A DNA stretch of 35,857 nucleotides from a virus, in IMG/VR virus record IMGVR_UViG_3300005529_000074, positions 1-35,857 of that record, one strand, 5' to 3'. The notes beneath the pieces were generated by a model. That model searched no databases. It was not told the origin of the DNA and worked only from the letters and a program-made list of their open reading frames with translations. Each line of letters opens with the position of its first letter. The stretch's first letter is position 1. Of this stretch, positions 13,291-32,742 are shown in pieces. Both the position numbers and the translations under genes were made by a program.

Positions 13291-13291
13291 T

Positions 13292-13335: not shown

Positions 13336-13374
13336 TCCTTGCTTTTCTCCTTGTATTATGGTATTTTTAATATT

Positions 13375-14484: not shown

Positions 14485-14528
14485 CACTGGCACAGAAGCC
14501 CCTGCCTTCAGGCATGGGGAGTAGTCAC
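14400..14528 (+). ncRNA. Predicted omega RNA (reRNA) at the 3' end of tnpB
   Basis: The tnpB 3' end and following bases contain a hairpin with CAGCGGC/GCCGTTG arms around TTTA (about 14459-14476) and the right-end hairpin CCCCTGCC-TTCA-GGCA-T-GGGG (14499-14519). In studied IS605-group elements the guide-RNA scaffold spans exactly this region, with the guide formed by bases just past the element end (here from about 14529). The 5' boundary is approximate. Confidence 0.55.
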
Positions 14529-14555
14529 TCCTATATACTCTCATGGATGACCGTA

Positions 14556-14584
14556 TTGACAACGTTTAATTCTTATTCTATTAT
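14556..14584 (+). promoter_or_regulatory. Late promoter 1 (sigma70 type)
   Basis: TTGACA (14556-14561), 17 bp, TATTAT (14579-14584). It lies between the right end of the TnpB element and the protease/scaffold gene and would drive the capsid and tail genes. The same design, with the same -35 box, spacing and ATTC before the -10, recurs at 32056. Confidence 0.82.
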
Positions 14585-14624
14585 CGTTTTTATGGGCAGA
14601 AGTATTAAGTAAAAATTTAAGCTA

Positions 14625-14696
14625 AAGGGTTAGTCTGAGTTCCAGAAGCCCGATTGTATTCGCTCAGCGGCGAGTGCAATCGGGCTTTTTATTTTT
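14625..14696 (+). promoter_or_regulatory. Attenuator-like leader, copy A: conserved hairpin plus intrinsic terminator
   Basis: A 23-nt motif (14625-14647) identical to that at 32138-32160 is followed by a 16-bp terminator stem, 14648-14663 with 14670-14685 (three G.T pairs, 6-nt loop), then TTTTTATTTTT. The motif can instead form its own hairpin: GGGTT (14627-14631) with AGCCC (14647-14651) and TCTG (14634-14637) with CAGA (14643-14646), which occupies the first four bases of the terminator's 5' arm. The two structures are mutually exclusive. Located 40 nt after the -10 box and 23 nt before the ATG at 14719. Confidence 0.75.
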
Positions 14697-14718
14697 AGCA
14701 ACTTTCACGGAGGTAACA

Positions 14719-16794
14719 ATGCCTTTTGGAAAATGGAGTTCATTTCAAGAATGCGTAGATGAGATGCAAAAAAAAGGCGCGCAGTCCCCGGAAGGTCTTT
14801 GTGCCTATATTCATCACAACCTCACTGGCCAGTGGCCTGCTCAATCTAAAAAAGAACTGAACTCTCTTTCTTTAACTCTAAGCGACATTGCTCTTGCCGA
14901 TGCTGTAATTGCAGAGGCTATGGCTCTTAAAAAATATGTAGATAAGCCCTGGAATGGGGATAAGGCAAGATATACGCTTGAACAACTCTATAATGCAGTG
15001 CCTGATGCCGTAGCTGCATGGGCGCTCTCTAATGCCGATGGCAAAAAAGAGGACATAGTAAAATCTGATCTCAAATTAAATTACAAGGAGCCAAACGGCG
15101 ATATAAACCTTGCTGGGGTTCGCGCGGCGCTTGCAGCAATTGGAGGGGCGCGTGGGAATCCTCCCGATCTGCCTGCCGATGTGCTTGCAAAGGCTAAGGC
15201 ACAATTAGAGAAAATCCTTGAATCTGGCAATAAGGCTTTAGGAAATAAGTCTTTAGACTTTAAGTGTCTAGAGGGAGGAATTCAGGGCACATCAGAAGAT
15301 ATCTCCTTGTCAGCTCAAATAGTCCATAAAGACACAGCAAAGAGGCTTGTAATTGGCGCAGTGCTATATCCCGGTATCCCGGACGGCGACCAGGATGTTG
15401 TAACGCCGGAAAGAGTGGAGAAAGTGGCACATGCCTATATGGAACACTATAGGGGCGTAGATACGATGCACTCGCTAAAGAAATCTGGCGTTCCTGTAGA
15501 GTCATGGATTGAGCGCTCTACAAAATCCTTTGCCATAGGCGATATGACATACACATATCCGCCCATGACATGGTTTATGGCATCGCGCGTTGATAATGAT
15601 AAAGATTGGCAGGATGTGCTTGATGGAAAGCTCACTGGTTTTTCTATATGCGCTGTGCCTAAATCAATGCTTGCGCAAATGGCTGAGAAATCGCTTGAGG
15701 AACTTACAGCAACAAAGCGCGTGACTCTGCGTGACCTCGAAGCGATAGACCCGGAAGGAGAGTGGCTTGTTCCATTCGTCTCCCTTGTGGATAAGCCCTC
15801 CTTCCACATATCGAAATTCCTTGTCGTCAAACGCGCCGATGGCTATATGGCTGGCTCATTTCAGCACATCTCTTATCTACTTAAAGATGCCCTTGAGTCA
15901 TTAATCGAGAATTCCATGCAAAATTCTCTGGGCATTGAGTTGACCTCTCAGGATTGGTCATTGCAGATTATATATACGCTTCCTGAGAGCGTGGTATTTT
16001 CTGTCTACTCCTATGCTACAGGGGAAGATTCCGGTACATATCAAATTGGCTATTCCTATGATCCGCAAAATAAAACCGTAACCCTAAATGGCGATCCGCA
16101 GCCTGTAGACCTTGAAACAATCACCGCACCAGTTGAGACTCCCGCGCAGGTATCGGAAAAATCTAAGCCCTCTGCATGGAAGGAAATTCTCTCTAAGCTC
16201 TCAAAGGCATTTGCGCCCTCAGCAATAGCTCAGAAGGCATCGCGCACTATCTCCAATGCTACACTGGATAAGATTGAGAGGGCGCATGATTCAATGGCTA
16301 CAGCCATGGCCCATATAACGGACCTTAAAAACACCGCGCGGTTAGAAAGAGTCAAGGGAGCAAATCAAAAGAGCCAATCAAAGTTTGTAAATAAATCCAC
16401 ACAAGAGGAGGTGCTAGATACCATGACCAAAGATGAAGTGGTGGCGATAGTGCAGGAGCAAATAAAGCCTATCTCCGAAACTCTTACGGCAGTCTCTAAG
16501 TCCATTGAAGAGATAAAAACGGCAAACCATGTCAATGTAGATATCGCTAAGAAAGCCGAAGAGAAAACAGATGAGGAAATACAGGCTGCCGTAAAGAAGC
16601 TCACGGAAGATATGCAAGTTCTTCTTAATGATTTGAAGGAGAGAAAAACCGCCTCAAAGCGTTTAGAAGGGCAGGACGGCCACTATGTTGAGAAAAAAGG
16701 GGATGAAGATGGGTTTATACTCAAGGGCCGCAATCAATATGGTGTTCGAATAAAAGAAGAGCATAAGCAGTCGAATTCAAGAGAGAAAATCTAA
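14719..16794 (+). CDS. Prohead protease (XkdF-like) fused to scaffold
   Basis: 691 residues. A short N-terminal domain (FGKWSSFQECVDEMQKKGAQSPEGLCAYIHHNLTG) and a helical domain (YTLEQLYNAVPDAVAAWAL...) lead to the XkdF/Peptidase_S78_2-like protease region at about residues 200-325 (KRLVIGAVLYPGIPDGDQDVVTPERVEK..MEHYRGVDTMHS..VPVESWIERS...MASRVDNDKDWQDVLDGKLTGFSI). H and S candidates lie in DTMHS and GFSI. The C-terminal about 120 residues (MTKDEVVAIVQEQIKPISETL...DLKERK) are coiled-coil scaffold. ATG 14719 follows CGGAGGTAAC; the frame extends 15 residues upstream but that part is the terminator leader. Acts inside the procapsid, shaping the shell and then cutting the scaffold. Confidence 0.82.
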   Translation: MPFGKWSSFQECVDEMQKKGAQSPEGLCAYIHHNLTGQWPAQSKKELNSLSLTLSDIALADAVIAEAMALKKYVDKPWNGDKARYTLEQLYNAVPDAVAAWALSNADGKKEDIVKSDLKLNYKEPNGDINLAGVRAALAAIGGARGNPPDLPADVLAKAKAQLEKILESGNKALGNKSLDFKCLEGGIQGTSEDISLSAQIVHKDTAKRLVIGAVLYPGIPDGDQDVVTPERVEKVAHAYMEHYRGVDTMHSLKKSGVPVESWIERSTKSFAIGDMTYTYPPMTWFMASRVDNDKDWQDVLDGKLTGFSICAVPKSMLAQMAEKSLEELTATKRVTLRDLEAIDPEGEWLVPFVSLVDKPSFHISKFLVVKRADGYMAGSFQHISYLLKDALESLIENSMQNSLGIELTSQDWSLQIIYTLPESVVFSVYSYATGEDSGTYQIGYSYDPQNKTVTLNGDPQPVDLETITAPVETPAQVSEKSKPSAWKEILSKLSKAFAPSAIAQKASRTISNATLDKIERAHDSMATAMAHITDLKNTARLERVKGANQKSQSKFVNKSTQEEVLDTMTKDEVVAIVQEQIKPISETLTAVSKSIEEIKTANHVNVDIAKKAEEKTDEEIQAAVKKLTEDMQVLLNDLKERKTASKRLEGQDGHYVEKKGDEDGFILKGRNQYGVRIKEEHKQSNSREKI
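16423..16794 (+). CDS. Possible separately translated scaffold (internal start)
   Basis: Within the protease gene, AGGAGGTG (16406-16413) precedes an in-frame ATG at 16423 with a 9-nt gap. Translation here would yield a 123-residue coiled-coil protein identical to the C-terminus of the protease, as lambda makes Nu3 from within C. Spacing is a little long, so use is uncertain. Confidence 0.45.
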   Translation: MTKDEVVAIVQEQIKPISETLTAVSKSIEEIKTANHVNVDIAKKAEEKTDEEIQAAVKKLTEDMQVLLNDLKERKTASKRLEGQDGHYVEKKGDEDGFILKGRNQYGVRIKEEHKQSNSREKI

Positions 16795-16810
16795 CGGAGG
16801 TGCAAAACAA

Positions 16811-17758
16811 ATGCCTTTAACACCACTAGAGGTACAATTAGAGCGGGCATTGTCCGTTCTGGCTCAAAAGCAGTTGGATTTATCAGCGCTGGGAGCCGCT
16901 ATACTCCAGCCTGAGAAAGCGGCGCGGTTTATTCAAGCCATTATGGATTCTACCGTGCTAATGGATGAGGCGCGTATGATCCCTATGACGGCTAATCAAT
17001 ACGATATAGACCGCATAGGGTTCGGCTCAAGGATTCTCCATAAAGCCACTGAGAATACAGCCCCATCATCCATATCGGCTCCAACAGTGGCAACAAATTC
17101 AATCAAGGTATTTGAACGCATAGCAGAAGCGGAGATTACAGATACCGCTCTTGAGAACAATATAGAGCGTGGAAACCTTGAAAATACTGTGCTTGACCTT
17201 GCAGGCGCTCAGGTGGGTCTTGATATGGAAGAGGGATTGCTCAAGTCTGATACAACGCTTGCCGGTTCCGATGCCGACCTTGGCGATTTTGATGGATGGC
17301 TAAAGCTTGCGGCAAACCAGCTTGACGGCGGAGCAAGTCCCCCGGACTTTGACCCTACCGATGTGCGCGATATGTTCAATAAGATGCTCAATGCAGTGCC
17401 GAGAAAATACCTCAAAAATCGGAATGCGTGGCGGTTCTACTGCTCATGGAACATAGAGGATGACTATAGAAATGTGCTTGGAGATAGAGGAACGATTCTT
17501 GGTGATCAAATGCTTACCGGCTTTCAACAGTTATCGTTTAAGGGTATCCCGGTAGTGCCTCTTGCCAATATGCCGGATGGCGAATGTTTGCTCGTCTACC
17601 CGGTCAACACCGTCTACGGCATTCAGAGAAAAATCAGGATGGAACCCTATAGACTGCCGCGCCAGAGGACAACGATTTTTGTATTCACACTCTCTTATGG
17701 GTGCAACTACGAAGATGAAAACGGCGCATGCCACGCTAAGGGATATACCGGACCATAA
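16811..17758 (+). CDS. Major capsid protein (HK97-fold)
   Basis: 315 residues. N-terminal helical region (LERALSVLAQKQLDLSALGAAILQPEKAARFIQAIMDSTVLMDEARMIPM) and then a typical capsid pattern: YDIDRIGFGSRIL, SIKVFERIAEAEITDTALENNIERGNLENTVLDLAGAQVGLDMEEGLL (P-domain long helix and spine), DVRDMFNKMLNAVPRKYL, and a late FKGIPVVPLANMP with a C-terminal basic beta strand. Position directly after the protease/scaffold gene and with a strong GGAGGTGCAAAACAA start supports the assignment. Forms the icosahedral shell. The N-terminal region is short, in line with a separate scaffold. Confidence 0.87.
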   Translation: MPLTPLEVQLERALSVLAQKQLDLSALGAAILQPEKAARFIQAIMDSTVLMDEARMIPMTANQYDIDRIGFGSRILHKATENTAPSSISAPTVATNSIKVFERIAEAEITDTALENNIERGNLENTVLDLAGAQVGLDMEEGLLKSDTTLAGSDADLGDFDGWLKLAANQLDGGASPPDFDPTDVRDMFNKMLNAVPRKYLKNRNAWRFYCSWNIEDDYRNVLGDRGTILGDQMLTGFQQLSFKGIPVVPLANMPDGECLLVYPVNTVYGIQRKIRMEPYRLPRQRTTIFVFTLSYGCNYEDENGACHAKGYTGP

Positions 17759-17780
17759 TCCATGACAGGAGGCGCATAGA

Positions 17781-18005
17781 ATGGCAAAGATGGCTCAGTA
17801 TACGGTTGTAAATACCGGAGAGCGGGTTGTTGAGAGGTTTGGTATATGGTTTAAACCGCATGTGCAAACAGTTGTAGAGCTTACAGAGAAACAGTGGCGC
17901 GCGGTAAAGGCGGTAAAATGGCTTCAAGTAGCGCTAGTTGCCCAAGATGAACAATCCGACCTCTCCGTTGCTAAAAAACACTCTGCGCAAGGGAAGAAAA
18001 AATAA
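17781..18005 (+). CDS. Small protein after capsid gene (decoration-like)
   Basis: 74 residues, unrecognised: VVNTGERVVERFGIWFKPHVQTVVELTEKQWRAVKAVKWLQVALV. Beta strands then a helix. Position immediately after the major capsid gene is where decoration or head-tail filler proteins often lie. ATG preceded by CAGGAGGCGCATAGA. Its stop overlaps the next ATG (TAATG). Confidence 0.6.
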   Translation: MAKMAQYTVVNTGERVVERFGIWFKPHVQTVVELTEKQWRAVKAVKWLQVALVAQDEQSDLSVAKKHSAQGKKK

Positions 18006-18415
18006 TGGCTTACTGCACACCAGATGAGATTTTGCAGCTTACTGGAATTCGCCCGGCGAATTTTTCCCTTGCAGATGACCCGCCTGGCCCAGATGCTCAA
18101 ACAGCGTCTGAAAAACTCAGCGCTATATTATCCGCTTGGGCAGATAATATTTCCTCTGCAATTGATGCAAGGCTAAAAAATGGTTCCGTAAGCGATACAG
18201 ATGCGCGCTATAAGGGGATAAAGGATGTTTGTTTAAGAACCGTAGCAAAGCTTGTAGCAACGGCAATGCAGATGCGGTTATCTCCCGTAATAAGAATTGA
18301 TGATTTTATTATGCGCGTGCTCAATACATCCGATGTAACAAAGGAACTAAGCGCGGAGCTCCGCCCATATCAGCGCTCAACAGTAAATGTATTTCTGAGC
18401 TCGGAGGCTTCATAA
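18005..18415 (+). CDS. Head-tail connector (gp6-like adaptor)
   Basis: 136 residues. It opens MAYCTPDEILQLTG, the usual start of phage head-tail connector/adaptor proteins (HK97 gp6 and SPP1 gp15 type), and continues with helices (SEKLSAILSAWADNISSAIDARLKNG, YKGIKDVCLRTVAKLVATAMQM). It binds below the portal to build the neck. TAATG overlaps on both sides couple it to its neighbours. Confidence 0.78.
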   Translation: MAYCTPDEILQLTGIRPANFSLADDPPGPDAQTASEKLSAILSAWADNISSAIDARLKNGSVSDTDARYKGIKDVCLRTVAKLVATAMQMRLSPVIRIDDFIMRVLNTSDVTKELSAELRPYQRSTVNVFLSSEAS

Positions 18416-18852
18416 TGGCCGCTCTACGCATTTCAATCTCTGGCAATTTAACTCAGCTGGCTTTCCGCGTAACACGCGCTCTGCCTCATGCTACTGCGGA
18501 GATTGTAAGAAGGTTTGCAGTAGAGATTTGGCATAGCTTGGTAGGGGAAACTCCCGTACTTACGGGAGCCGCTGCAAGGGCATGGGATTTAGTTCGGCTT
18601 AGTGAGTTCGCATGGCGCGTGATGAATCCAAAAAGGTATCTCCTGATAGTGCTCTCTGGAAGGGGCGTTGTGGTTCCAGTACGAGCGCGAGCTCTTCATT
18701 TCTACATAGAAGGGCGTGAGATTTTTTGTATGCGCTCAAAAGCGGTAAAGCCAAATCCATTTGTGCAAAGAGCGATGAGAAAGGCTAAGGCACAATTCCC
18801 TTATATAGCTAAAGAGGTTCTAAAGCAAGAAGCTATTAAACCAGGAGGCTAA
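18415..18852 (+). CDS. HK97 gp10-like neck/tail completion protein
   Basis: 145 residues: RRFAVEIWHSLVGETPVLTGAAARAWDL ... VKPNPFVQRAMRKAKAQFPYIAKE. The 'P.LTG...W' and 'P.PF...A...A' elements are typical of the HK97-gp10_like family, which joins head and tail. Strands in the middle contain RYLLIVLSGRGVVVPVRA. Coupled to the upstream gene by TAATG. Confidence 0.74.
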   Translation: MAALRISISGNLTQLAFRVTRALPHATAEIVRRFAVEIWHSLVGETPVLTGAAARAWDLVRLSEFAWRVMNPKRYLLIVLSGRGVVVPVRARALHFYIEGREIFCMRSKAVKPNPFVQRAMRKAKAQFPYIAKEVLKQEAIKPGG

Positions 18853-18857
18853 GTAAA

Positions 18858-19058
18858 ATGAAGATTCCAAAAAATATAGGCAAGGGTGCATCAAAACTCG
18901 ATAAGGTTTATCAAATTCTTGAAGATATAGCAGATGATCTCAATACAATAAAAACAAAGGTCAATGCCACGCACGCAAAGCTCGATGCCGATACTGGAGT
19001 AAATGGCACTGATTATGCGTCTACAAATAACATAGGAACATTAAAAACGATAAAATAG
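18858..19058 (+). CDS. Small hypothetical neck-region protein
   Basis: 66 residues, unrecognised: helical N-terminus (KGASKLDKVYQILEDIADDLNTIKTKVNATHAKLDADTGVNGTDYAST). AGGAGGCTAAGTAAA precedes the ATG. Short proteins of this 'HAKLDADTGV..TDYA' type are common in tail and neck operons of mid-sized phages, but with no assigned role. Confidence 0.62.
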   Translation: MKIPKNIGKGASKLDKVYQILEDIADDLNTIKTKVNATHAKLDADTGVNGTDYASTNNIGTLKTIK

Positions 19059-19060
19059 CG

Positions 19061-19519
19061 ATGCAATTAGACTCTAAACGCTCAAGTATTGTTAGTAAAA
19101 TCTCTGACATTCTTAGCGCCCAAATAGGCTCTGAGAATGGCCATAAGCTCTATGATGTAACGAAAGGGATAAATTACGGAGATCATGTGCTTATAGAAAA
19201 ACTCGCATCCACTGGCGACTCTCTTATATGGATTATACCGGAGCCTTATACCCCTACAAGCGATAGAGACTTAGAAGACCACGATATTCCATTCACGTTT
19301 GCGGCAATGGTAAATGACCTTGATCCAGAAGCTGGACAGAAAAAAGCTGAGTCTATTAGAGACCGCGTATATGAGCTTCTATCTAGCGATAGGCAGCTTG
19401 CCGGATTAGTTGATGTTGTAATGCCCGGCACAATTGACCCAGCTTATCGGGTTACAGACCAGATGGCTGTATACAGTGCGGCATGCACGCTTATATTTCG
19501 AGTGCTTCTACAAGAATAA
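19061..19519 (+). CDS. Tail terminator/completion-like protein
   Basis: 152 residues. N-terminal helix (SSIVSKISDILSAQI), central strands (SLIWIIPEPYTPTS, IPFTFAAMVNDLD), a helix (AESIRDRVYELLSSD) and a terminal pair of strands (AVYSAACTLIFRVLLQE). This alpha/beta order, with the 'gi...i.vi.r' end and its position just before the tail tube, fits the tail terminator (lambda gpU-like) fold. Sequence similarity to a named family is not evident to me. Confidence 0.55.
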   Translation: MQLDSKRSSIVSKISDILSAQIGSENGHKLYDVTKGINYGDHVLIEKLASTGDSLIWIIPEPYTPTSDRDLEDHDIPFTFAAMVNDLDPEAGQKKAESIRDRVYELLSSDRQLAGLVDVVMPGTIDPAYRVTDQMAVYSAACTLIFRVLLQE

Positions 19520-19539
19520 AATCTATGGAGGTATAAAAA

Positions 19540-20739
19540 ATGGGATTCATTCCAATTACGCCAGGATTAGGAAGCATTGAAAAGGGCAGGTGGAGGGTTA
19601 TAAAAGAGACCACAGAAGGGGTAATACCAGATTTTAACGATACTGGCTGGCAGCCCTTTAAGATACAGAGCGGTGCGGCAATAACAGATACTCCTACTCT
19701 TATTGAAATTGATCCAATCCGCGACACTCTCTCTGCTTATGACACAGAGATTGGTAAAGAGGTGGTGGCTGGCGAATTGCCTCTATATTTTGAGGCTCCA
19801 ACGACAATTGGCGGACCAAATGATTGCGATACAATGCTTGAGCTGCTTTTTGGCTCAAAACATACCACCGCCGCTATGACCAATGCTGCAATAAAAGATG
19901 TAAATACCATTCAGGTTGACGCAATAGACCCTAATCTCAAGGTCAATGACATTATACTGCTCAAGATTACCCTGGATTCTGTGAACTATGACTATCCAGT
20001 TGCTGTTACATCCCTTAACACAACTGCGACGCCGGATGAGATAGGGATATTCCCCCCTCTTCCCGCTACTGCTACTCTAAATTCCACGAGCATTGGAGCT
20101 GCAAGGCACTATACCCCGAAAACCGGACTCCCTACCGGTTGCATACAAAGGCTTGAAGCCGATGACCAGATTCTCTTCTCATATCCAGCGTGCCGTATCT
20201 CTCAAGGGGTATTCGAGATGACCCCTAATAATCCTCTTGTGCCAAAATTTACAGTAAGCGGCACTTATGAAAATGAGCAAGATAGTTTTGTTGATACATA
20301 TTCGCCTCCTTCTCTTGGAAAATCTTTTGTTATGAAAGGAGCGCGTGTGCTCATAGATGATGAATACAAAACATGGAACGCATCGGTTACCGTAACATAC
20401 TCAAACCAGTTGGGAGAGAAAGAGGGGATTGAAGCCGCAACTGGCGTTTCCGGGCATTATGAAAATGTGCGGCAAATCACAGTAGCTCTAAATTTTCAAT
20501 ACAATAATGCCGCTGAGAGAGCAAAATTTAGGACTGCACAATCAAGAAAGATGCTCATTTATGGATCAAGAACTATGGATGATGGCTCAATCCGTTGCTT
20601 TGCGTGGTATTTCCCAAATCTCAAGGCTACCGCTCTTACTGAGCCTATTACAGGACGGCAAAAGAAATATCAGATGACCGCCCGCGCGTATCAGAAAGAT
20701 ACAAACGGAGATAATGAAGTGTGTCTTAGTCTGTTTTAA
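19540..20739 (+). CDS. Tail tube (major tail) protein
   Basis: 399 residues. It opens GSIEKGRWRVIKETTEG, a frequent start of siphovirus tail tube proteins, and continues with beta-rich sequence (GELPLYFEAPTTIGGPNDCDTMLELLFGSKH; FTVSGTYENEQDSF; RVLIDDEYKTWNASVTVTYSNQL). The 'L....G' plus 'K..qM.....Y' ending (KKYQMTARAYQKDTNGDNEVCLSLF) is typical. It is longer than the usual 150-250-residue tube proteins, suggesting a decorated tube or insertion domain around 120-200. Located just before the chaperone frameshift pair, as expected. Forms the inner tube of a non-contractile tail. Confidence 0.78.
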   Translation: MGFIPITPGLGSIEKGRWRVIKETTEGVIPDFNDTGWQPFKIQSGAAITDTPTLIEIDPIRDTLSAYDTEIGKEVVAGELPLYFEAPTTIGGPNDCDTMLELLFGSKHTTAAMTNAAIKDVNTIQVDAIDPNLKVNDIILLKITLDSVNYDYPVAVTSLNTTATPDEIGIFPPLPATATLNSTSIGAARHYTPKTGLPTGCIQRLEADDQILFSYPACRISQGVFEMTPNNPLVPKFTVSGTYENEQDSFVDTYSPPSLGKSFVMKGARVLIDDEYKTWNASVTVTYSNQLGEKEGIEAATGVSGHYENVRQITVALNFQYNNAAERAKFRTAQSRKMLIYGSRTMDDGSIRCFAWYFPNLKATALTEPITGRQKKYQMTARAYQKDTNGDNEVCLSLF

Positions 20740-20751
20740 AAAGGAGTTTCT

Positions 20752-21222
20752 ATGGCAGAAAGCAATATCCGATGGTCAGATAATGGAAAGGAGTTTGAGT
20801 TTAATGTAGAGCTTCCCGGCGTAGGAATATCGCCAAAGAAAGGACGCATAGGACACATGACTCTTTCTCAAGAGGATCGAATAATAGAGCTTGCCGAGCA
20901 AACATTTGGACAGCCGGTAAATTCTCTTAATGAGGTATTTGGCTTTGTAAAGGACCAGCCGCGCAAATACCGAGATATGATTCTTGAGATTATTCTTATG
21001 CAAAACCCTGATCTTACAAGAGAGGATTTGCTCAATGGGCTTTCATTCGGCGAGATAACACGCATTGTAATAAAAATAGCGCAGAACTACTATTTCTCTG
21101 GTCCCGAGGCGGACAATATGCGTTTTTTATCCGGTTCTCAGGAAGCCCCTACTCAAAGTGGGACTGCACAGAGTGCAGGCGACAGGGTCTTGAACGGGAG
21201 CGGAACTGCCGGGGAAAAGTAG
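20752..21222 (+). CDS. Tail assembly chaperone (gpG-like), frameshift donor
   Basis: 156 residues: SDNGKEFEFNVELPGVG... TLSQEDRIIELAEQTFGQPVNSLNEVFGFVKDQPRKYRDMILEIILMQNPDLTREDLL, then a low-complexity tail. It lies between tail tube and tape measure, the fixed position of gpG/gpT-type tail assembly chaperones. It ends GGG-GAA-AAG-TAG (21211-21222). The frame one base back is open for another 81 codons, so a longer product can form by -1 slippage. The short and long forms are needed in set ratio to coat the tape measure in lambda. Confidence 0.72.
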   Translation: MAESNIRWSDNGKEFEFNVELPGVGISPKKGRIGHMTLSQEDRIIELAEQTFGQPVNSLNEVFGFVKDQPRKYRDMILEIILMQNPDLTREDLLNGLSFGEITRIVIKIAQNYYFSGPEADNMRFLSGSQEAPTQSGTAQSAGDRVLNGSGTAGEK

Positions 21223-21467
21223 AGTCGCGTGATACTTTCTATAGGCTCGGCAATTGGGAATCGCAGTTATGCCCCGTGTGGCATATAAGACGAATAGGGT
21301 ATTTTGAACGAAAGGCATGGAACCTATTTAATCTTATCACAGGCGGCATAGTGCATTTTACTATGACCGAGTATATGAACACGGATAAGAGATTGCTCGA
21401 TGCCATAGCTCTATATAGTTCGGAGAAATCAAAGATTGATGAAGAGCAGCGCGGAGACAATGAATAA
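21219..21467 (+). CDS. Frameshift extension of tail assembly chaperone (gpGT-like)
   Basis: In the -1 frame codons run GTA-GAG-TCG-CGT from 21219 without a stop to 21465-21467 (about 81 residues after the shift: VESRDTFYRLGNWESQLCPV, then WHIRRIGYFERKAWNLFNL and on). The donor ends A-AAG-TAG: tRNA-Lys on AAG can slip back to AAA (21216-21218) while the stop codon waits in the A site. The in-frame ATG 21276 is not a likely start, as it has no ribosome-binding site. Its end overlaps the tape measure start (TAATG). Role: bridge between the tape measure and tail tube subunits. Confidence 0.68.
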   Translation, partial: VESRDTFYRLGNWESQLCPVWHIRRIGYFERKAWNLFNLITGGIVHFTMTEYMNTDKRLLDAIALYSSEKSKIDEEQRGDNE

Positions 21468-24400: not shown

Positions 24401-26200
24401 ATAAACACCGGATGGGCTTCCGCCGAACTTGAAGCTGCAATGCAGACATTTTGGAAATCGGCTCTTACATCCCTTGGAGTGCAGGCATCCAAAGCAAGTT
24501 CGCTTGTAGATGATATTTTCAAGGATTTCTGGACATCAAAAGATAAAGCGAAGATTGGGCAGGAAATGATAGCTACATTCCAGTCCTATGTAGCCGCTTT
24601 TAATCTCCTTAATAATAATGTTCAAGATGCGCTTCAAGGACAGATAAATCAGGCAATACAACTATCAAAAACCCTTGGATTTGCTGGGCTTCCTACGATG
24701 GCAGAGTTCGATGCAAAGCTAAGGCAGCTCATAGCAGATGCCAAAATAACTCCCGATACTATCGCTCAATTCCAGCAGCTCCACGATATACTCGCTTCGC
24801 TGCCTTCCGCGCTTGCCGCCGCTGTTGGCAGTCTCACAAGGTTTATAGATGATCTCAATGCCAAAATTACTGGGCTTGGCGGCACGGCAATTGATACTAC
24901 TTCATTTACACGAACCGCTATAGGAGCTATTGAAAACGCTCTTGCTCAAGGTGGTCTCTCTCTTGATGTAAGAGAGCAGCTGCTAAATCAAATGTCCGGT
25001 CTGGTGGACCAATTTGTCGCCGAACAACTCGCTCAGATGCAAAGGGCAAATGAGCAGATGATTGCTCAAGCCCAAGCACGCATAGATGCTCTTAATGCTG
25101 AGAAAACCAAGATTCAAGAGGCTTTTCAAGCGCGTATAGACGCTTTAAATAAAGAGCTTCAAATAGCACAGCAGTATCAAAGGCTTACTGAATCCATTAA
25201 ATCCGATATAGATAACATATTTAAATCCCCTAATGCGCCTCTAACCCCTACCGAGCAAATAAACAGGCTTCAAGCTGAGATAGATGCTGCCAAACAGCAA
25301 CTCTCTAAGACTACAGATGAGGCGCAAAGGCAAGCGATAATAGACCAGTTAAGGCAGTACCAAACTGAACTATTTGACCTTGCCGGTTCTGCATTCGGCT
25401 CTGGCACTCCAGAGATGCAGACCATATTTACGCAAGTTGCCGATGAACTCAATGCGCTCCTCAAAGAGACTCAAGATAAAGGCGATGATGCGATAGATAT
25501 TCAAAAACGTATAGATGCCAATACAAAGCAGATGAATGACCAGCTTGCCAATCTCGATCAGCAAATAGCCAAAGCCAATGCACAAATAGCCGCTCTGCAA
25601 GCTCAGGGTAATCAACTCCAGGGCATAGCAGCTGCGGAGGCAAGGCAGTATTATGAGTATATCCGTGCTGAGGCCATGAAAATACTCCAGGCGCGTTTAG
25701 ATGAACTTTCGCAAGCCTCTAAAACCTCCGTTATGTCTACTCAGCAGTATCAAAATGCCTCTGTATCTCTACTCACTCAAATCCGCGATATATTGGCCGG
25801 AACAAAGTCCGCTCAGCATGGGCTCACTGTTCCAAGCGGTGAGACGCTTCTTGCGTTTTTGCATGGTCCGGAGATGGTAGTACCTCATTCGGATTTTAAG
25901 CAAGCGATGAATTTCTATACAAGCTCAACCCTCAGCGCTCTTGGCGCTCTTTTGGGACGCATATTTGGAGTGGAAAATTCATCGCAAAACTTCTTCGGAC
26001 AAAGGATAGCGGAGGCAAGAACATCTCAAAGAGCCGTCTCTTCCGAAGCCAATATTCATCTCTATCTGCATTTTGATGGCAATGCTACTGCACAGGATAA
26101 GCAAATGGCATATAAAGAGATAGGGGCATATCTTGGTGAGTATCTGACAAAAGGAGAGGGCAGAAAGATATTGAAGCAGTTTAGAGAAGCAAATTATTAA
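21467..26200 (+). CDS. Tail tape measure protein
   Basis: 1,577 residues, the longest gene in the window. N-terminal coiled coil (EVNQAVSALENLAKKLTDLSG), a hydrophobic region near 85-105 (GAILGLLGVGSVTALLY), and TMP-like helical stretches (LARLTFTTQNYQKSLQALPAVMGFAAANSLDLSSAARLVGSAIEG). Several hydrophobic helices occur at about 700-860 (FAAIATQKFIINIAAQI; GIGGIAGAGLSGAMAAGLLGTALMPFAPLVAVGIPLVEGL) that may insert in the host membrane. A strong coiled coil lies at about 1185-1400, and the C-terminal GLTVPSGETLLAFLHGPEMVVPHSDF is common in tape measures. It sets tail length: at about 1.5 angstrom per residue, near 230-240 nm. Overlaps the chaperone by 1 bp. Confidence 0.93.
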   Translation: MPTGAGPNDTIQIDVQAEVNQAVSALENLAKKLTDLSGATRPSTDALERTAGFIDNIKKAADSAQPKIKSFTDHIFSLKGAILGLLGVGSVTALLYKLTSAAGEEETSIARLTVALANAGTSYDKVRDHLEPYFKQLQATTTFTDEEAREALARLTFTTQNYQKSLQALPAVMGFAAANSLDLSSAARLVGSAIEGNFMMIGRWLPQLRSMSQAQIDNMTIQQKATLVLDLLNKKYQGLAEYMATTFPGRMLRAEHAFSDLEEAVGRFITATPAINAAIEVVISHFTSWTEALDKEREGMAKTMEFNLRIIDIAEDIALGISVVIQSFLLLKDTVEVVWRAIVVAFDTIKASVGFTVSVLLTGLGYLSKGLEAVGLAAKGSGDSLDKASKFMMDIAKSGRDELAPALDDLKSAWNNLTTEFGSTKIYDRVIEIFNEVRDRLKDIKVNAPAVGEPGKYAERASAQVAQLNKQLDDEIKKLKEQVETFGMSKKEIALWEAEQLAAQGVDKNRIATITALKIRLDELQQSHDALIRASENMRKADEAVTANLEKQQSIVSSLALSFDDLAKAYEGTGRRISQSDISSVIESQLRKLQAEFEKTKDDIQKAFGGTGDRPFIDPRAIALTEQAWQQTQIKMADIQRQGYILQLKNSDDFFERMKGSFLEFADSVKSDTQAIATFWGNVLSTMSQNFSTLLFDVVTGKLHSLLDIAKQTFLAMVKSAIDMFAAIATQKFIINIAAQISPSFAGQMAQMIPGVGAQAITGADQAIKSITPSVMAGFLKSLSPYLPAIGVGVYGAYSLAQGNFMQGIGGIAGAGLSGAMAAGLLGTALMPFAPLVAVGIPLVEGLVEGLVGLFKKQPYYEIDLGHLQSTELKRFATMGDFLAAVGDTSSDIAKKLVKIFEEHGATAGAGSQSVRDALLQAIDQQFIQPVQSAIKTLPQSVGDQIMDAFLNTPIVYKGDQLTMNQVGDKIAKDVQNFINTGWASAELEAAMQTFWKSALTSLGVQASKASSLVDDIFKDFWTSKDKAKIGQEMIATFQSYVAAFNLLNNNVQDALQGQINQAIQLSKTLGFAGLPTMAEFDAKLRQLIADAKITPDTIAQFQQLHDILASLPSALAAAVGSLTRFIDDLNAKITGLGGTAIDTTSFTRTAIGAIENALAQGGLSLDVREQLLNQMSGLVDQFVAEQLAQMQRANEQMIAQAQARIDALNAEKTKIQEAFQARIDALNKELQIAQQYQRLTESIKSDIDNIFKSPNAPLTPTEQINRLQAEIDAAKQQLSKTTDEAQRQAIIDQLRQYQTELFDLAGSAFGSGTPEMQTIFTQVADELNALLKETQDKGDDAIDIQKRIDANTKQMNDQLANLDQQIAKANAQIAALQAQGNQLQGIAAAEARQYYEYIRAEAMKILQARLDELSQASKTSVMSTQQYQNASVSLLTQIRDILAGTKSAQHGLTVPSGETLLAFLHGPEMVVPHSDFKQAMNFYTSSTLSALGALLGRIFGVENSSQNFFGQRIAEARTSQRAVSSEANIHLYLHFDGNATAQDKQMAYKEIGAYLGEYLTKGEGRKILKQFREANY

Positions 26201-26273
26201 GGGGTGATCTTACATAAAGGCTACATCTTCTTTTATATCCTATACCATTGACACGCATCCATCTGAATATTCA

Positions 26274-26978
26274 TTGGATTGGCAGGCGGACAATATGGCT
26301 ATTCTTGATCGCCCTCAAATCTCATGGAGAAGTGCCGCTCTCGATGAGCAAATAATGGTTCTAGATTTGGGCGCATTATATTCCGATCCCCTTATTGCGC
26401 TCTATTACTCGAATCTTGACCATGTTCTTATAGAAGCCAATGACACTAACGCATGGGGTAGCTCAATATTTCCTTCTACTCAAGCCGATTTCGATTATGA
26501 CCCGGATTTATGTGTCTACCTCTCATCCCTACAGATAATAGGAGATGTAAGATATGTGAGAATAACCGTTCCCGTACAATCTACAGTTGATGGTGCAGAT
26601 TGGTATGAAATAGGCATTGTGGCTTTCCCTACGGATATTCAAGAGTTCAATCTCTCTAAAGAGCAGTTTGAGTGGCCTGTAGGGATTACAAAGACGATAT
26701 ACGAAAATGAAGTGGAGCTTATAGGCACTACTGACAAACAGCTTTTATCCTCTCTTCCTACCCTTACATTTCAACTCTCCGGCACTATGTCTCAAGACAG
26801 AACCTCCAGAGCTAAATTCAACAGCGTTTTTGCCAATCCATCGAAGCCTCTAATATTTGTGGACTTTGAGAAAACGGATTGGTCTTATTATCTTGGCAAG
26901 CGTTCATATCAAATAGATATGCCAAGACAAAATGCAGCCTTAATGAAAATTACAATAGGTTTTAAAACAATTGCTTAA
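26274..26978 (+). CDS. Tail tip protein (distal-tail-like)
   Basis: 234 residues from TTG 26274. The frame is open back to 26208 with coding-like residues (KATSSFISYTIDTHPSEYSL), and GGGGTGAT sits 5-8 bp before an ATA at 26214, so the true start may be a rare AUA codon. The sequence is beta-rich: an N-terminal domain with a 'VLDLGALYSDPLIALYYSN' strand pair and a 'WGSSIFPSTQADFDYDP' loop, then a second domain (FEWPVGITKTIYENEVELIG ... LTFQLSGTMSQDRTSRAKFNSVFANPSKPLIFVD). Position after the tape measure fits the distal tail protein slot. Family not recognised. Confidence 0.6.
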   Translation: MDWQADNMAILDRPQISWRSAALDEQIMVLDLGALYSDPLIALYYSNLDHVLIEANDTNAWGSSIFPSTQADFDYDPDLCVYLSSLQIIGDVRYVRITVPVQSTVDGADWYEIGIVAFPTDIQEFNLSKEQFEWPVGITKTIYENEVELIGTTDKQLLSSLPTLTFQLSGTMSQDRTSRAKFNSVFANPSKPLIFVDFEKTDWSYYLGKRSYQIDMPRQNAALMKITIGFKTIA

Positions 26979-26989
26979 AAGGAGGGTAA

Positions 26990-27520
26990 ATGAATATAAC
27001 CTTATGGAAAATCAAGAATTTCCCGCATATAGCAAGAGGGTATATGCGCATACTAAAAGACAAACTAAGCGGCGTATCGCATCCACAAGCTCGACTCTAT
27101 GCCGAGGTGTATAAGAATGGGGATCTCGCGGCAGACTTAGGCTGCATCTCTATTAATGTAGTGACCGATGCTTTTGCCTCGTATCTTGTGCAGTGCCTCA
27201 TAGGAGCGCAGTCTGCTGGTGTATTTAAGTATCATGGCTGTGGGACAGGAACGGGAGCAGAAAGTGCGGGCAATACTGCACTAAGCGCCGAAGTCGGCTC
27301 TCGTGTTATTGGCACTCAAGAGGTAGGAGCAAATTCTAAGCAATATAAGTCAGTAGCCCAAATTGCATTCTCAAGCAACTATGCCATTACTGAGCATGGG
27401 GTATTTTCGGCATCGAGCGGAGGCACTCTATTTGATAGAAGCGTTTTTGCAGCTATTAATGTTGATAGCTCAACTGAAATTAAGTTTACATTTACTGAGG
27501 ATGTTCCTTCGGGCAATTAA
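26990..27520 (+). CDS. Conserved tail protein
   Basis: 176 residues. The central motif VFKYHGCGTGTGAESAGNTALSAEVGSRVIGTQEV... SVAQIAFSSNYAITEHGVFSASSGGTLFDRSVFAAINV recurs in many phages as an uncharacterised tail or fibre-associated protein, with the pattern H-G-x-G-T-G ... L ... TEHG-F ... GG-L-DR-F. Beta-rich. GGAGGGTAA precedes the ATG. Lies in the tail-tip gene cluster, so a fibre or tail-tip structural role is likely. Confidence 0.65.
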   Translation: MNITLWKIKNFPHIARGYMRILKDKLSGVSHPQARLYAEVYKNGDLAADLGCISINVVTDAFASYLVQCLIGAQSAGVFKYHGCGTGTGAESAGNTALSAEVGSRVIGTQEVGANSKQYKSVAQIAFSSNYAITEHGVFSASSGGTLFDRSVFAAINVDSSTEIKFTFTEDVPSGN

Positions 27521-27531
27521 GTCTCTACACA

Positions 27532-30500
27532 ATGGCACAATTTATCTCACGCTTTGTATCATTTGCAAAGGCAACAGTAAACGGCGATCAGGTCATAGCG
27601 CACGGGCTTGGAGAATCGCCCAAGGCTATTTTATTCTTTACTACCGGAGTTGCATCTGTATCGGGGAGCGTAGATACAAAATCTCGAATGTCTTTTGGGT
27701 TTGCCACTGCTCCTGCTAACCAATATTCCGCATCTGGCGGCTCTTCCAATAACGATTCTCCCACTCAAGCGGCAAGGCGCATAGGCGCTCACACACTTAT
27801 TATTAAAGGCGCTCCTACAACTGGCATTGTAGGAATTGCGGATTTAAAATCATGGGATGCCACTAATTTTACAATCACATGGAGTTCAAACGGCACTCCG
27901 GCATGTATAGTCCACGCACTTGTCCTCGGCGGCTCTGATTTGCAGGTTAAATGCCTTAACTGGCAGCTTCCCACAAGCGCTCAAGGGGCCTCAAAGTCCA
28001 TAACAGGCGCTGGTTTTAGTCCCGATGCCGTAATACATATTTTTGTAGGCGGCGTTACATCTCTTGATACCAATGTTGCTAATAATGGCATAGGCATTGG
28101 AGCAATGGATAAAAATGGCAGTCAATTCTCTTGCTCTATACTTGATCTCAATGGGGTTACTACTTCAGACGCTCAAAGGTCTCTTGTCACTGATTACTCT
28201 ATTTCTATGATAGACCAGTCCCTTTCTATTGTAGCCAATGCACAATTTAGTTCTATGGATGCCGATGGATTTACGGTCACGTGTCCGGTAAGGGCTGGCT
28301 CAGCATATCAAATAGCCTCTCTTTGTCTGCGCGGGATAAATATAAGGATAGGCAATTTTCTTAAAACTACCGGCTCCGTGCCTCCAGACCCTGGATATGT
28401 GGAGCAAGCCATTCCAGTTGGATTTAAAACGCAATCTATTTTATTTTTCTCTCACTGTGCTTCAAGCGCTGGTGCTCTATCCCATGCCCGCATATCAGCC
28501 GGCGGAGCTGATGATGCTGGACATGAAGGGTCTGACCTTTGCACAATGCAAGATGGAGCAAACCCTTCTAATTCCAAATCCGTCTCCAAGAACGATAAGG
28601 CTTTTATGGTCGCTGATAATACGAGCGCCAATATCGAGGCGGAGTGCGACTTCGGGAGCGCGGATTTTCAAAACACATATATTCGATGGACTACAAATAA
28701 CGGCGTTGCTACCCAAATTGCCTATATTGCTCTATCGAAATATGTAACTGTAGTGGATGCTCCAGTAGGCGGTTCTATTCCTATAAGCGGGGGTGTATCC
28801 AGAGCAAAGATAGTCAATCAAAGCGCGGGCGGTGGCTCAGTCCCGGTTGGAGGCGGCGTTTCTACAAAACGTGTGCTTACTATAAATGCAGGGCAGGGAA
28901 CAATACCCATTGCCGGTGCACTATCGAGGCTTGTAGAAAAGGATATCGGGCTTGGCTCTATCCCCATTTCTGGAGTGCTTCAACAATCCCCCATTTATGA
29001 ATGGTTTTGGTCCACCCATGACACTGATATTAGAACTCCGAATAAGGAGAAGAAAATACTCGTTGAGATAACATCCGATCCCAATTCTCTTCCAGCCAAT
29101 TCTCCCTCAGATAGAAGATACTCCAAAAGGCTTACCCCAAAATTCCCCGACCTTTCCAAAATAGCTACTCAGGATATTTTTGGCATTATCTCTTACGGTT
29201 CTATTGATATAGAGGTATCAAATATAGGGCAGGATGGAGAGCCGACTATAAATCCCATGTCGCGAGACCTCACGAATCTAACCGCAAGGGTATGGGAGGG
29301 CAATGGAGATTGGCAACTTAAATTTAGAGGCACTGTAAGAAAAGCAAAAATAGGCTCGATAAGCAATTTTACAATAGAGGATTTAAATATCCGATCCTTT
29401 TCTCAAATATATCCCCGAAGAATTATAGATACGACTCTTTTCCCTAAAACAGTGGACCAGGGGAGCATACAATGGATATTTGGAAGATGCGAGGGGCTAC
29501 TCTTAAAACTGGTCCATGTTGATAATGACAACCGTCAATATCGGTACTTAGTAGGAGAAGGGATTGGATTAAACGGCGGATATTTTGATAAAATATATAC
29601 TCTTTATAGAAACGACTCGGCTTTTTATGTAGCCACAGGAACAGTGCGGGGAGCTACTGCAAACACAATTACATTTGATTCAGCCGATAGGCAGTCAAAA
29701 GACTGGTATACATGGTGGTGGGTAGTAGTAACTGATTCTCTTGGCAATAAGCAAACAAGGTATTTAACTGGATACGATTCTACTACAAATACTGGAGTTG
29801 TGGATTCAAACTGGATTGTTATCCCTCAATCCGATGGCACGTGGACTTATGAACTAAAGCAGTGGCGGTTCTATATTGATCTGTCTACAAAATGCGCGCT
29901 TGTGGAACTGAAACAGTTTCAAAAAACCGGCTCTACAAATGATGTAATAACGGCGGATGTAGACGGCTTTCAAGAAGAGAAGAATTTTGCAAGGGCCGTG
30001 CAATCATTCCTCTCAAACGATACATGGGGAATGAATAGAGCAATAAATATTGAGATGTTTGATGAAGCAGCGGCAAGCCCCGATATTGCCTCACTCTCGT
30101 GCGAGGGATTTGTCGCGGATAGGAGAAGAACTGGAAATGCCGCTCAGGATATTCTTGCCGATCTTATGCGTCCTGGGAGAATGATATTTGAAGAAACGGA
30201 TGCTGGATTGGGTATAAAGATAAATTCCACACCTGGACAATCAAAAATCACGTATTCATATCAACGCTATCTGGTAAAGGATTCTTATGAAGGAGTGGAT
30301 TTTACCGACCTTGATCAGCGCATAAGAAATATTACAGTGCGCTATAATTTCTCTCATAAGAAAGATGATTTTATTGGCTCTTTTACAAGGGCCTCATCAG
30401 ATGCCGGTGTGGATACCGAGCTGCTTTTGCCCTTTACATACTCAAGCGCAGATGCTGATAGGCTCTTAGATATAGAGAGAAAACTGCAAAGAGCAAAAAT

Positions 30501-31821
30501 TAGAACTATCCGAATAAAAGTAAACCCCCCGGCTGGTATAGTGCACTCAATAAACGATAAAGTAACCCTGGATTTGCCAAGACACGGCATAAATCTTTCT
30601 GATTTTATAGTAGAAAGCGCATCTGAGAATGCCGGAGTATGGTCTCTTTCGCTTTTCCCCGATGATCCAAATATTTTTATATATGAGCCTTCCTCAACCC
30701 TTCCACCCGCTCCAGCTCCGGGTATTATTCCAGACTATACATCTACCCCGCCCGTTCCATTGTCAAATGTCATTATAACGCCTGGATACATAATTAATGC
30801 GGATAAGAGCGTAACGGCTTATTTTGATATATCTGCCACCCCGCCTGAGTCAAACTATAAGGAGTTCTCGGTGCAATTAAAACAATCTGCCGATTCCATT
30901 TATCAAGAACTCGGAAGGGGATATGATTTCTTGAGGCTTTCCAATCCTATTATTATCCCCGGACTCTCTTACGATTTTATAATAACCCCCTGGAATTTTA
31001 ACGCCACTCTTGCTGGGCTTGCCTATACGCAAACTGGCATCATAGCAGGCGGCGATAATAAGACTCCAAAGGCGGTAACAGGATTTGTCAACAATGGCGG
31101 GCATGGTGATATAGGTTGGAAATGGAATGCTGTCACGCAAAATACTGATAATTCCAATCTTATTGCGCCTCTCATGGACTATGAGCTCGAGATTTATCCT
31201 GCCAATTCATTGTCGAATAAAGAGGATACAATTTATATAAAGCCTTCAGATAAGCCTCAATACACATATCTTGCTCAAACTGCAAATCTGGCCAATTCTT
31301 CAATAAGCAAATGGGCAAGGATAAGGGCGAGGAAATGGAATGGGCAATATTCGGCATGGACATCCCCTCTTGTGCAGTCATCCACAAGCGCTATAGTAAA
31401 GGGCGATGTGCCAACCAATGAATTTACATCCGAATTTTACACACACATAGACGGTCCCATAGCTCCAGTTTATCCCGCCGCCCACATTTCGGGCACTGTT
31501 ACTATAATAGCCGGAGCCCCAGTGGACCTTACATGGATTATTATGATGCACCATTCCGCCGATTCCTCAGTAGGCAATTCTGGCTGGTATTATGACCTTT
31601 TAAGGGGGAATACAGTGATTAAATCCGGCTTTCTAGCTCCGGCTCTCTTTAAGGCTTCTGGAGGCATAGGGGAGCAATATTATTCAAATAAATTTACTGA
31701 CTCTAATCCGCCGGCAGGCACTTTTACATATAGCATCAAGATGACGCCGCCCTTTACGGGGCTTCCGGCAGGCGTGGATTTGCGTGATCTTTCGATGACA
31801 GGAAGGCAGCACAGCAGGTGA
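27532..31821 (+). CDS. Large modular tail-tip protein (hub/receptor-binding type)
   Basis: 1,429 residues. Residues 1-405 are three tandem copies of an about 135-residue beta domain: [G]-h-x-[SP/KT]-x-[A/S]-[I/V]-[L/H]-[F/I]-F at 27-36, 160-171 and 297-306, and S-x-DA-x-x-F-T-[IV] at 107-115 and 241-249, with a weaker third. Residues 408-483 hold four about 21-residue glycine-rich repeats (G-x-IPI/V-x-G). A central tail-hub-like region (485-1050) contains DIEVSNIGQDGEPTIN, YPRRIIDTTLFPKTVDQGSIQWIFGRCEG and a carbohydrate- or tube-binding-like beta region. An FN3-like domain (about 1080-1165) and a C-terminal beta domain end the protein. It has no signal peptide. Probably the tip fibre or hub that meets the host. 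Confidence 0.7.
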   Translation: MAQFISRFVSFAKATVNGDQVIAHGLGESPKAILFFTTGVASVSGSVDTKSRMSFGFATAPANQYSASGGSSNNDSPTQAARRIGAHTLIIKGAPTTGIVGIADLKSWDATNFTITWSSNGTPACIVHALVLGGSDLQVKCLNWQLPTSAQGASKSITGAGFSPDAVIHIFVGGVTSLDTNVANNGIGIGAMDKNGSQFSCSILDLNGVTTSDAQRSLVTDYSISMIDQSLSIVANAQFSSMDADGFTVTCPVRAGSAYQIASLCLRGINIRIGNFLKTTGSVPPDPGYVEQAIPVGFKTQSILFFSHCASSAGALSHARISAGGADDAGHEGSDLCTMQDGANPSNSKSVSKNDKAFMVADNTSANIEAECDFGSADFQNTYIRWTTNNGVATQIAYIALSKYVTVVDAPVGGSIPISGGVSRAKIVNQSAGGGSVPVGGGVSTKRVLTINAGQGTIPIAGALSRLVEKDIGLGSIPISGVLQQSPIYEWFWSTHDTDIRTPNKEKKILVEITSDPNSLPANSPSDRRYSKRLTPKFPDLSKIATQDIFGIISYGSIDIEVSNIGQDGEPTINPMSRDLTNLTARVWEGNGDWQLKFRGTVRKAKIGSISNFTIEDLNIRSFSQIYPRRIIDTTLFPKTVDQGSIQWIFGRCEGLLLKLVHVDNDNRQYRYLVGEGIGLNGGYFDKIYTLYRNDSAFYVATGTVRGATANTITFDSADRQSKDWYTWWWVVVTDSLGNKQTRYLTGYDSTTNTGVVDSNWIVIPQSDGTWTYELKQWRFYIDLSTKCALVELKQFQKTGSTNDVITADVDGFQEEKNFARAVQSFLSNDTWGMNRAINIEMFDEAAASPDIASLSCEGFVADRRRTGNAAQDILADLMRPGRMIFEETDAGLGIKINSTPGQSKITYSYQRYLVKDSYEGVDFTDLDQRIRNITVRYNFSHKKDDFIGSFTRASSDAGVDTELLLPFTYSSADADRLLDIERKLQRAKIRTIRIKVNPPAGIVHSINDKVTLDLPRHGINLSDFIVESASENAGVWSLSLFPDDPNIFIYEPSSTLPPAPAPGIIPDYTSTPPVPLSNVIITPGYIINADKSVTAYFDISATPPESNYKEFSVQLKQSADSIYQELGRGYDFLRLSNPIIIPGLSYDFIITPWNFNATLAGLAYTQTGIIAGGDNKTPKAVTGFVNNGGHGDIGWKWNAVTQNTDNSNLIAPLMDYELEIYPANSLSNKEDTIYIKPSDKPQYTYLAQTANLANSSISKWARIRARKWNGQYSAWTSPLVQSSTSAIVKGDVPTNEFTSEFYTHIDGPIAPVYPAAHISGTVTIIAGAPVDLTWIIMMHHSADSSVGNSGWYYDLLRGNTVIKSGFLAPALFKASGGIGEQYYSNKFTDSNPPAGTFTYSIKMTPPFTGLPAGVDLRDLSMTGRQHSR
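28757..28981 (+). repeat. Four glycine-rich coding repeats in the tail-tip gene
   Basis: The protein reads GGSIPISGGVS, GGSVPVGGGVS, QGTIPIAGALS, LGSIPISGVL with about 21-residue spacing. The DNA copies have diverged, so this is an old expansion, probably a flexible or beta-solenoid linker between the N-terminal triplicate domains and the hub. Confidence 0.65.
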
Positions 31822-31828
31822 GATATAC

Positions 31829-32059
31829 ATGCGATATGTAATCTATGATACTTCTACGGGCGAAATAATAGCGCAGTGTATAACATCAACACTTGAGGCT
31901 TTCTATGCCCATGAACTTGACCCCGGACAGGGGAAAATGCTAGTTGATGATGATAGCCTATGGGATAGATGCGGATTATATACAATTTTGCAAAATGGGG
32001 TAAGGCAGAGAAAGATTTATGTGGATGTTACAACAGGCAGGCTTATGCCAAGGGATTGA
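31829..32059 (+). CDS. Small hypothetical protein ending the tail operon
   Basis: 76 residues, beta-rich (RYVIYDTSTGEIIAQCIT ... RQRKIYVDVTTGRLMPRD). The 'Y-x-x-x-T-G-E/x-I' and 'V-T-G-R-L' pattern resembles short phage tail-associated proteins with repeated Y..tTG strands. GGTGAGATATAC precedes the ATG. Its stop codon lies inside the -35 box of the next promoter, which marks the end of this transcription unit. Confidence 0.6.
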   Translation: MRYVIYDTSTGEIIAQCITSTLEAFYAHELDPGQGKMLVDDDSLWDRCGLYTILQNGVRQRKIYVDVTTGRLMPRD

Positions 32060-32084
32060 CAAAAAGTGTGGGAGATTCTAATAT
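32056..32084 (+). promoter_or_regulatory. Late promoter 2 (sigma70 type)
   Basis: TTGACA (32056-32061), 17 bp, TAATAT (32079-32084). Same layout as the promoter at 14556, with ATTC before the -10 in both. Drives the signal-peptide gene cluster from 32229. Confidence 0.82.
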
Positions 32085-32137
32085 GACTTAGAGGACGATT
32101 TATGGGCCATAATTTTATCAAATAAGATTTTCTGATT

Positions 32138-32210
32138 AAGGGTTAGTCTGAGTTCCAGAAACCCGTGTGTGCTTGCTAGATAGCGAGTGCTCACGGGTTT
32201 TTTATTTTAA
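32138..32210 (+). promoter_or_regulatory. Attenuator-like leader, copy B: conserved hairpin plus intrinsic terminator
   Basis: The 23-nt motif (32138-32160) is identical to copy A. The terminator stem pairs 32161-32177 with 32182-32198 (17 positions, one T-T mismatch, AGAT loop), followed by TTTTTTATTTT. As in copy A, GGGTT (32140-32144) with AACCC (32160-32164) and TCTG with CAGA form a rival hairpin overlapping the terminator's 5' foot. The terminator's closing pair is A-T here and G-C in copy A. Begins 53 nt after the -10 and ends 18 nt before the ATG at 32229. Confidence 0.75.
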
Positions 32211-32228: not shown

Positions 32229-32717
32229 ATGGTCAAAATCAAAAAATTGTTTCTCGCTCTAATGATAGCGCTTTTGCTTTTCTTTGTAGATGCCTCTATT
32301 TATGCGCAATCTAGCCCAGAGCTCGAACCTCAAACATCAAAGACTCAAAACTGGTTCCGAGCATATAAAGACAAAACTGGCATTTGCGCGACTGATTACA
32401 CCACGGAGCCACAAGCGCGCTGGTCGCAAGCCTCGGATTTTCAATACAAATACCTCTATATCCATAATACAAGCGAGGCCAATAGCATGACATATAAGAT
32501 AATTATATATGCCAATAGCGAAACCACGCGCGGGGGATGCTTGCTTGATTACTGCAACAAGAACTTGGATGCAGTTGCAGGCGGAAGCTATGATTTAATC
32601 CCTCTCCCTGAAGGAATAGCAAAGATTGAGATTTACGTAAAAGATAAAACGGGAAATACCGGTCACTGTGCATATAACATACAGGCAAACGGACATTTCT
32701 GGCGAGGACTTCATTGA
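32229..32717 (+). CDS. Secreted hypothetical protein
   Basis: 162 residues with a Sec signal peptide: MVKIKKLF, then hydrophobic LALMIALLLFFVDASIYA, with likely cleavage after IYA (near 26). The mature part has four or more cysteines (TGICATDY, GGCLLDYCNKN, TGHCAYN) that could form disulphides outside the cytoplasm. Beta strands such as KYLYIHNTSEANSMTYKIIIYANS suggest a small beta sandwich. First gene behind promoter 2 and its attenuator-like leader; GGAGGGTCAAC precedes ATG. No family recognised. Confidence 0.68.
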   Translation: MVKIKKLFLALMIALLLFFVDASIYAQSSPELEPQTSKTQNWFRAYKDKTGICATDYTTEPQARWSQASDFQYKYLYIHNTSEANSMTYKIIIYANSETTRGGCLLDYCNKNLDAVAGGSYDLIPLPEGIAKIEIYVKDKTGNTGHCAYNIQANGHFWRGLH

Positions 32718-32742
32718 CTTAAGTGTAAAGAGGAAGGCAACC

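Follow-up and report, generated by a model that had tools for sequence, protein, structure and literature searches.

Why does a single phage genome carry the same arrangement of promoter, leader, and intrinsic terminator in two places, each directly ahead of a gene? The window analyzed here is the whole of IMG/VR record IMGVR_UViG_3300005529_000074, a linear virus record of 35,857 bases whose gene content indicates a temperate tailed phage. We propose that the two cassettes are attenuators of RAT/LicT or ANTAR design that would be opened by one trans-acting RNA-binding factor, a reading that we hold with slightly better than even confidence.

Genomic context of the two cassettes

The minus strand of the window encodes an integrase and a repressor. 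On the plus strand, excisionase-like and replication-like genes are followed by terminase, portal, MuF, protease, capsid, tail tube, and tape measure genes, and the order portal-MuF-XkdF-XkdG is common to this phage, Methanobacterium virus Drs3, and a prophage in genome G121.

The earlier note on this DNA placed the cassettes in front of "both late operons", a description that is half right. Cassette 1 does head a plus-strand block of protease and capsid genes, beginning with an XkdF-like head maturation protease (14719-16794, with GGAGG at 14709-14713) and continuing with the major capsid protein (16811-17758). It lies, however, inside the morphogenesis cluster, with the terminase (from 8726), portal (from 10270), and MuF (from 11811) genes upstream on the same strand. 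Cassette 2 stands ahead of genes for signal-peptide-like proteins, the first of which (32229-32717, plus strand) encodes 162 aa with a signal-peptide-like N terminus and has no family match. All three consecutive ORFs in the stretch behind this cassette (32229-35857) start in a signal-peptide-like manner; the last, from 33902 onward, contains a CBM9-like domain and runs off the end of the record.

Other regions of the window have features of their own. A TnpB gene with OrfB_IS605 and Cas12f1-like TNB domains (13135-14484) is located between MuF and cassette 1, and this stretch of the morphogenesis cluster (13135-14545) has, by eye, an omega-RNA-like 3' end. The terminase large subunit (8726-9979) looks mosaic: residues 11-236 share 44% identity with a Campylobacter phage, and the best matches of residues 226-416 are Stenotrophomonas phages. 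The early region encodes a pentapeptide-repeat protein (4403-4969). Directly upstream of the terminase genes, a 190-aa ORF with CPVC and HHGC motifs (7483-8055) has no family match and is a candidate late regulator.

Shared anatomy and conservation

Both cassettes are composed of the same elements in the same order, and every element that the earlier note listed was found at both places. Promoter 1 (14556-14584, plus strand) consists of TTGACA at 14556, a 17-nt spacer, and TATTAT at 14579-14584, with 11/12 consensus matches; promoter 2 (32056-32084, plus strand) consists of TTGACA at 32056, a spacer of equal length, and TAATAT at 32079-32084, with 10/12. The spacers end in ATTC. A leader of about 100 nt follows in each case, with TATGGGC at 14591-14597 and 32101-32107, and each terminator is located about 30 nt ahead of the next start codon. 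Together with an early promoter at 2245, these are the three best promoters of the window. Between 14.6 and 32 kb the plus strand has no promoter as good that could serve the capsid and tail genes, which counts in favor of the attenuator model.

Each leader contains a 23-mer, AAGGGTTAGTCTGAGTTCCAGAA, that is identical at 14625-14647 and 32138-32160 on the plus strand, as had been claimed. The window contains no third match at up to three mismatches, with 0 expected by chance. With the adjoining terminator foot, 27/28 positions are identical between the copies, and outside the conserved pieces similarity drops towards background: 8/14 in the 14 nt ahead of the motif, 6/17 in the promoter spacers (where ATTC is the only contiguous stretch), and 13/40 in the 40 nt upstream. 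The preservation of this block amid diverged surroundings is a point for the attenuator model. Because bulge, loop, and arms of the hairpin described below agree in 24/25 letters while the surroundings have diverged, the same factor likely recognizes both copies.

An intrinsic terminator follows the motif in each cassette, on the plus strand. Terminator 1 (14648-14692) has a 17-bp stem (14648-14685; -30.4 kcal/mol, z -7.6) and a U tract, and terminator 2 spans 32161-32205 (stem 32161-32198; -24.9 kcal/mol, z -6.8). The 3' arms of both carry GCGAGTGC, and the 5' arms differ yet still pair, as previously noted. Column by column, the stem is kept through three two-sided and four one-sided changes, with nine invariant pairs and one mismatch, a U-U in copy 2; the pair at the foot changes from G-C in copy 1 to A-U in copy 2. 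The plus strand of the window has no strong terminator besides these two, which likewise counts for the attenuator model. A stricter test, which folds short windows, requires one simple hairpin, and so may miss odd terminators, returned -33.0 and -27.9 kcal/mol for the cassettes versus -14.1 for the next in the window.

A predicted hairpin overlaps the terminator foot

Structure prediction folds the 23-mer and the terminator foot into a 25-nt bulged hairpin that cannot coexist with the pairing at the terminator's base. In both copies (14627-14651 and 32140-32164, plus strand) it has the AG bulge and AGUUC loop described earlier and a predicted stability of -9.7 kcal/mol. Its 5' arm is GGGUU and UCUG on either side of the bulge, and its 3' arm is CAGA followed by AGCCC in copy 1 or AACCC in copy 2. 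The one differing base, G to A in the foot, keeps its pairing in both alternative folds, which favors the attenuator model.

By prediction, the hairpin and the terminator are mutually exclusive. In the nascent RNA the hairpin predominates for the most part (probability 0.41-0.96) until the 3' arm of the terminator emerges; once that arm is made, its probability falls to near zero. Over the whole leader the terminator beats the hairpin by 7.7 and 9.9 kcal/mol, the cost of holding the hairpin, and a bound protein could pay this gap. When the hairpin is held, the upper terminator stem is still predicted to form, standing clear of the U tract.

Taken by itself, the hairpin is only moderately improbable, its stability being reached in about 2% of shuffles or of segments drawn at random from the window. 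Its one change between the copies is one-sided, with no compensatory change, and the comparison comprises only two copies from one genome; both facts count against the attenuator model. The case for the hairpin comes instead from how little it differs between the copies and from its overlapping the terminator foot exactly.

Searches for homologous leaders

Rfam scans yielded no family above the gathering threshold and, in permissive runs, none credible below it; no match to another known element was found. The weak resemblances to RybB and MtlS that lie below the threshold probably stem from the terminator alone. An exact 17-mer search of IMG/VR and GTDB returned five matches, all unrelated. 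Relaxed patterns returned 39, 30, and 3 matches in IMG/VR, none with a correctly placed terminator, and the 25-nt hairpin was absent at up to three mismatches from 793 sampled genomes of two phyla (398 + 395). A 108-nt covariance model run against about 110 loci recovered only the two copies and one chance-level match (E 3.3), and blastn against phages and plasmids revealed no leader of similar kind. Among relatives, promoter-terminator leaders of similar make were limited to two unrelated cases. Records very near the window's own may be left out of these searches, so near relatives may exist unseen.

The earlier note had named a lack of further homologues with covarying stems as an argument against its reading, and none were found as far as we searched. 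With no homologous leader found, the hairpin is without covariation support, and this absence counts against the attenuator model. It is not a disproof, since the closest available relative has about 45% protein identity: portal- and capsid-based searches reached at best 39% in IMG/VR and 45% in the G121 prophage. In the latter, about 50 nt separate MuF from the protease and there is no leader, which also counts against the model; the leader was therefore either gained in the lineage of this phage or lost in that of G121.

A proposed attenuator pair and its factor

We propose the following sequence of events. RNA polymerase would start at the strong sigma-70-type promoter, transcribe the leader, and by default stop at the intrinsic terminator right ahead of the first gene. 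An RNA-binding factor acting in trans, probably a phage product made at an earlier stage, would hold the 25-nt hairpin, whose 3' arm (CAGA ARCCC) includes the 5' foot of the terminator. The terminator stem would thereby be shortened and kept off its U tract, and transcription would enter the genes. One such factor could activate the head-and-tail genes together with the distal gene block. The earlier suggestion that one factor could switch both units fits the mutually exclusive hairpins of both leaders and with their placement for gating two blocks.

Among the ORFs scanned, Pfam recognized no antitermination factor of the CAT_RBD/PRD, ANTAR, Q, or NusG-like kinds, which counts against the model; the factor may be encoded by the host. 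Alternatively, the phage could encode a new family of RNA-binding antiterminator, directed at a 25-nt target of its own, that switches on morphogenesis and the distal exported-protein block at once, although we regard this as rather unlikely. In lambdoid phages, late genes are under the control of Q-type proteins that load through promoter DNA. A new-family antiterminator would add a further route, besides N/put and Q, by which temperate phages gate late genes, possibly in combination with a leader peptide. Site-specific antitermination through RNA at two places in one phage would also offer a compact switch, with a trans factor still to be found, and could be used as an orthogonal regulator.

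Alternative explanations

The terminators could instead be overcome by a Q- or AlpA-like DNA-binding factor that loads the polymerase at the promoter, the loaded enzyme then ignoring the terminator and the 23-mer serving as a pause or accessory site. A promoter-leader-terminator-gene layout at two operons also characterizes AlpA, with alpB and PA0807 (PMC7969949); it resembles lambdoid late promoters, and the CPVC...HHGC ORF directly upstream of the terminase genes would be a candidate. Q and AlpA elements sit between -35 and -10 (PMC7969949), whereas here the spacers and the upstream 40 nt are diverged and the conserved block lies in the transcript, hugging the terminator. A search for Q or AlpA proteins gave no match, and the AF2 model of the candidate ORF is uninformative (pLDDT 40.6, too low for use). 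Since the promoter spacer is unconserved, we consider this type of loading less likely than the attenuator pair, and improbable. Factor-free, processive action by a put-, EAR-, or conAn-like RNA, in which the hairpin and upper terminator stem would bind RNA polymerase, gains from the two tandem hairpins predicted to form when the first is held and from the conservation of GCGAGTGC in the upper stem. The put element, however, measures about 70 nt, has a pair of long stems, and works at a distance (PMC9378689), and the cassettes have a single, nearly invariant hairpin seated on the terminator, for which Rfam again offers no counterpart. That difference makes put-like action less likely than the attenuator pair, and we give it a slim chance.

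Ribosome-coupled attenuation draws on a feature absent from the earlier note. The ATG of TATGGGC starts a possible leader ORF of 6-7 codons in both leaders, ATGGGCAGAAGTATTAAGTAA (MGRSIK*; 14592-14612, plus strand) and ATGGGCCATAATTTTATCAAATAA (MGHNFIK*; 32102-32125, plus strand). The two share the pattern ATGGGC...ATYAARTAA, differ in length by 3 nt, differ only synonymously in the last two sense codons, and end 14 nt ahead of the hairpin. If these ORFs were translated, the position of the ribosome could pick the fold, and with the leader masked as far as the ribosome, the predicted probability of the nascent hairpin climbs to about 0.96. Against this, the pattern would arise by chance with a probability of about 0.04 under an estimate that takes the conserved ATG and TAA columns as given, the first ORF is close to leaderless and has no Shine-Dalgarno sequence (AGAGGA precedes the second), the peptides differ and contain no run of regulatory codons, and the terminator still wins at equilibrium. 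The ORFs are a lead on weak evidence, and we consider ribosome coupling about as doubtful as put-like action. Least probable of all is that the cassettes are two small-RNA genes, producing RNAs of about 100 nt with a shared seed and lying ahead of a gene only incidentally. The promoter-terminator distance and the shared 23-mer would fit, as would the faint RybB and MtlS resemblance if it were not probably that of the terminator. The seed, however, has no above-chance target in the window (its longest complement measures 10 nt, and duplex energies resemble those of shuffles), the units end about 30 nt ahead of a start codon with a well-placed ribosome site, and the genes behind them have no equally good promoter. 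The same complement length and duplex energies led us to reject an antisense RNA that would be encoded in the window and target the motif.

Comparison with known systems

The earlier note likened the cassettes in concept to HK022 put, a comparison that our findings do not support. HK022 put antiterminates as RNA alone through the beta' zinc-binding domain and, to our knowledge, is not built over a terminator. Like the cassettes, it places a shared cis-acting RNA behind the promoter in two phage leaders, but it serves early operons and, as a two-stem element, requires no protein dedicated to it (PMC9378689). The cassettes were found to match put in neither sequence nor structure, put being taken here from its published description. 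AlpA and Q share with the cassettes a strong promoter, a short leader, and a terminator directly ahead of the first gene at two operons (PMC7969949), but these two recognize DNA between -35 and -10, the stretch in which the cassettes agree at only 6/17 positions.

The closest parallels are the RNA targets of the attenuator type. RAT, in LicT-type systems, is a bulged hairpin of about 25-30 nt that takes the terminator foot as its 3' arm (PMC3369936; PMC9981650), and the hairpins of BglG, LicT, and SacY, like those predicted here, are exclusive with an intrinsic terminator. RAT has two asymmetric internal loops and serves sugar operons, whereas the cassette hairpin has a single 2-nt AG bulge and serves phage morphogenesis genes, and no CAT_RBD/PRD protein was found among the scanned ORFs. 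The ANTAR proteins EutV, NasR, and AmiR act on several leaders per genome, each with a shared hairpin overlapping a terminator (PMC3369936). Their targets comprise two hairpins with A1 and G4 in the loops, in contrast to the one conserved hairpin and 5-nt AGUUC loop seen here, and the scanned ORFs contained no ANTAR domain. In both LicT-RAT and ANTAR systems, the held hairpin shortens the terminator stem and parts it from the U tract (PMC3369936). A hairpin seated on the terminator foot is the RAT/ANTAR layout (PMC3369936); the cassettes are of a known kind in their design, and the factor that would read them may or may not be new.
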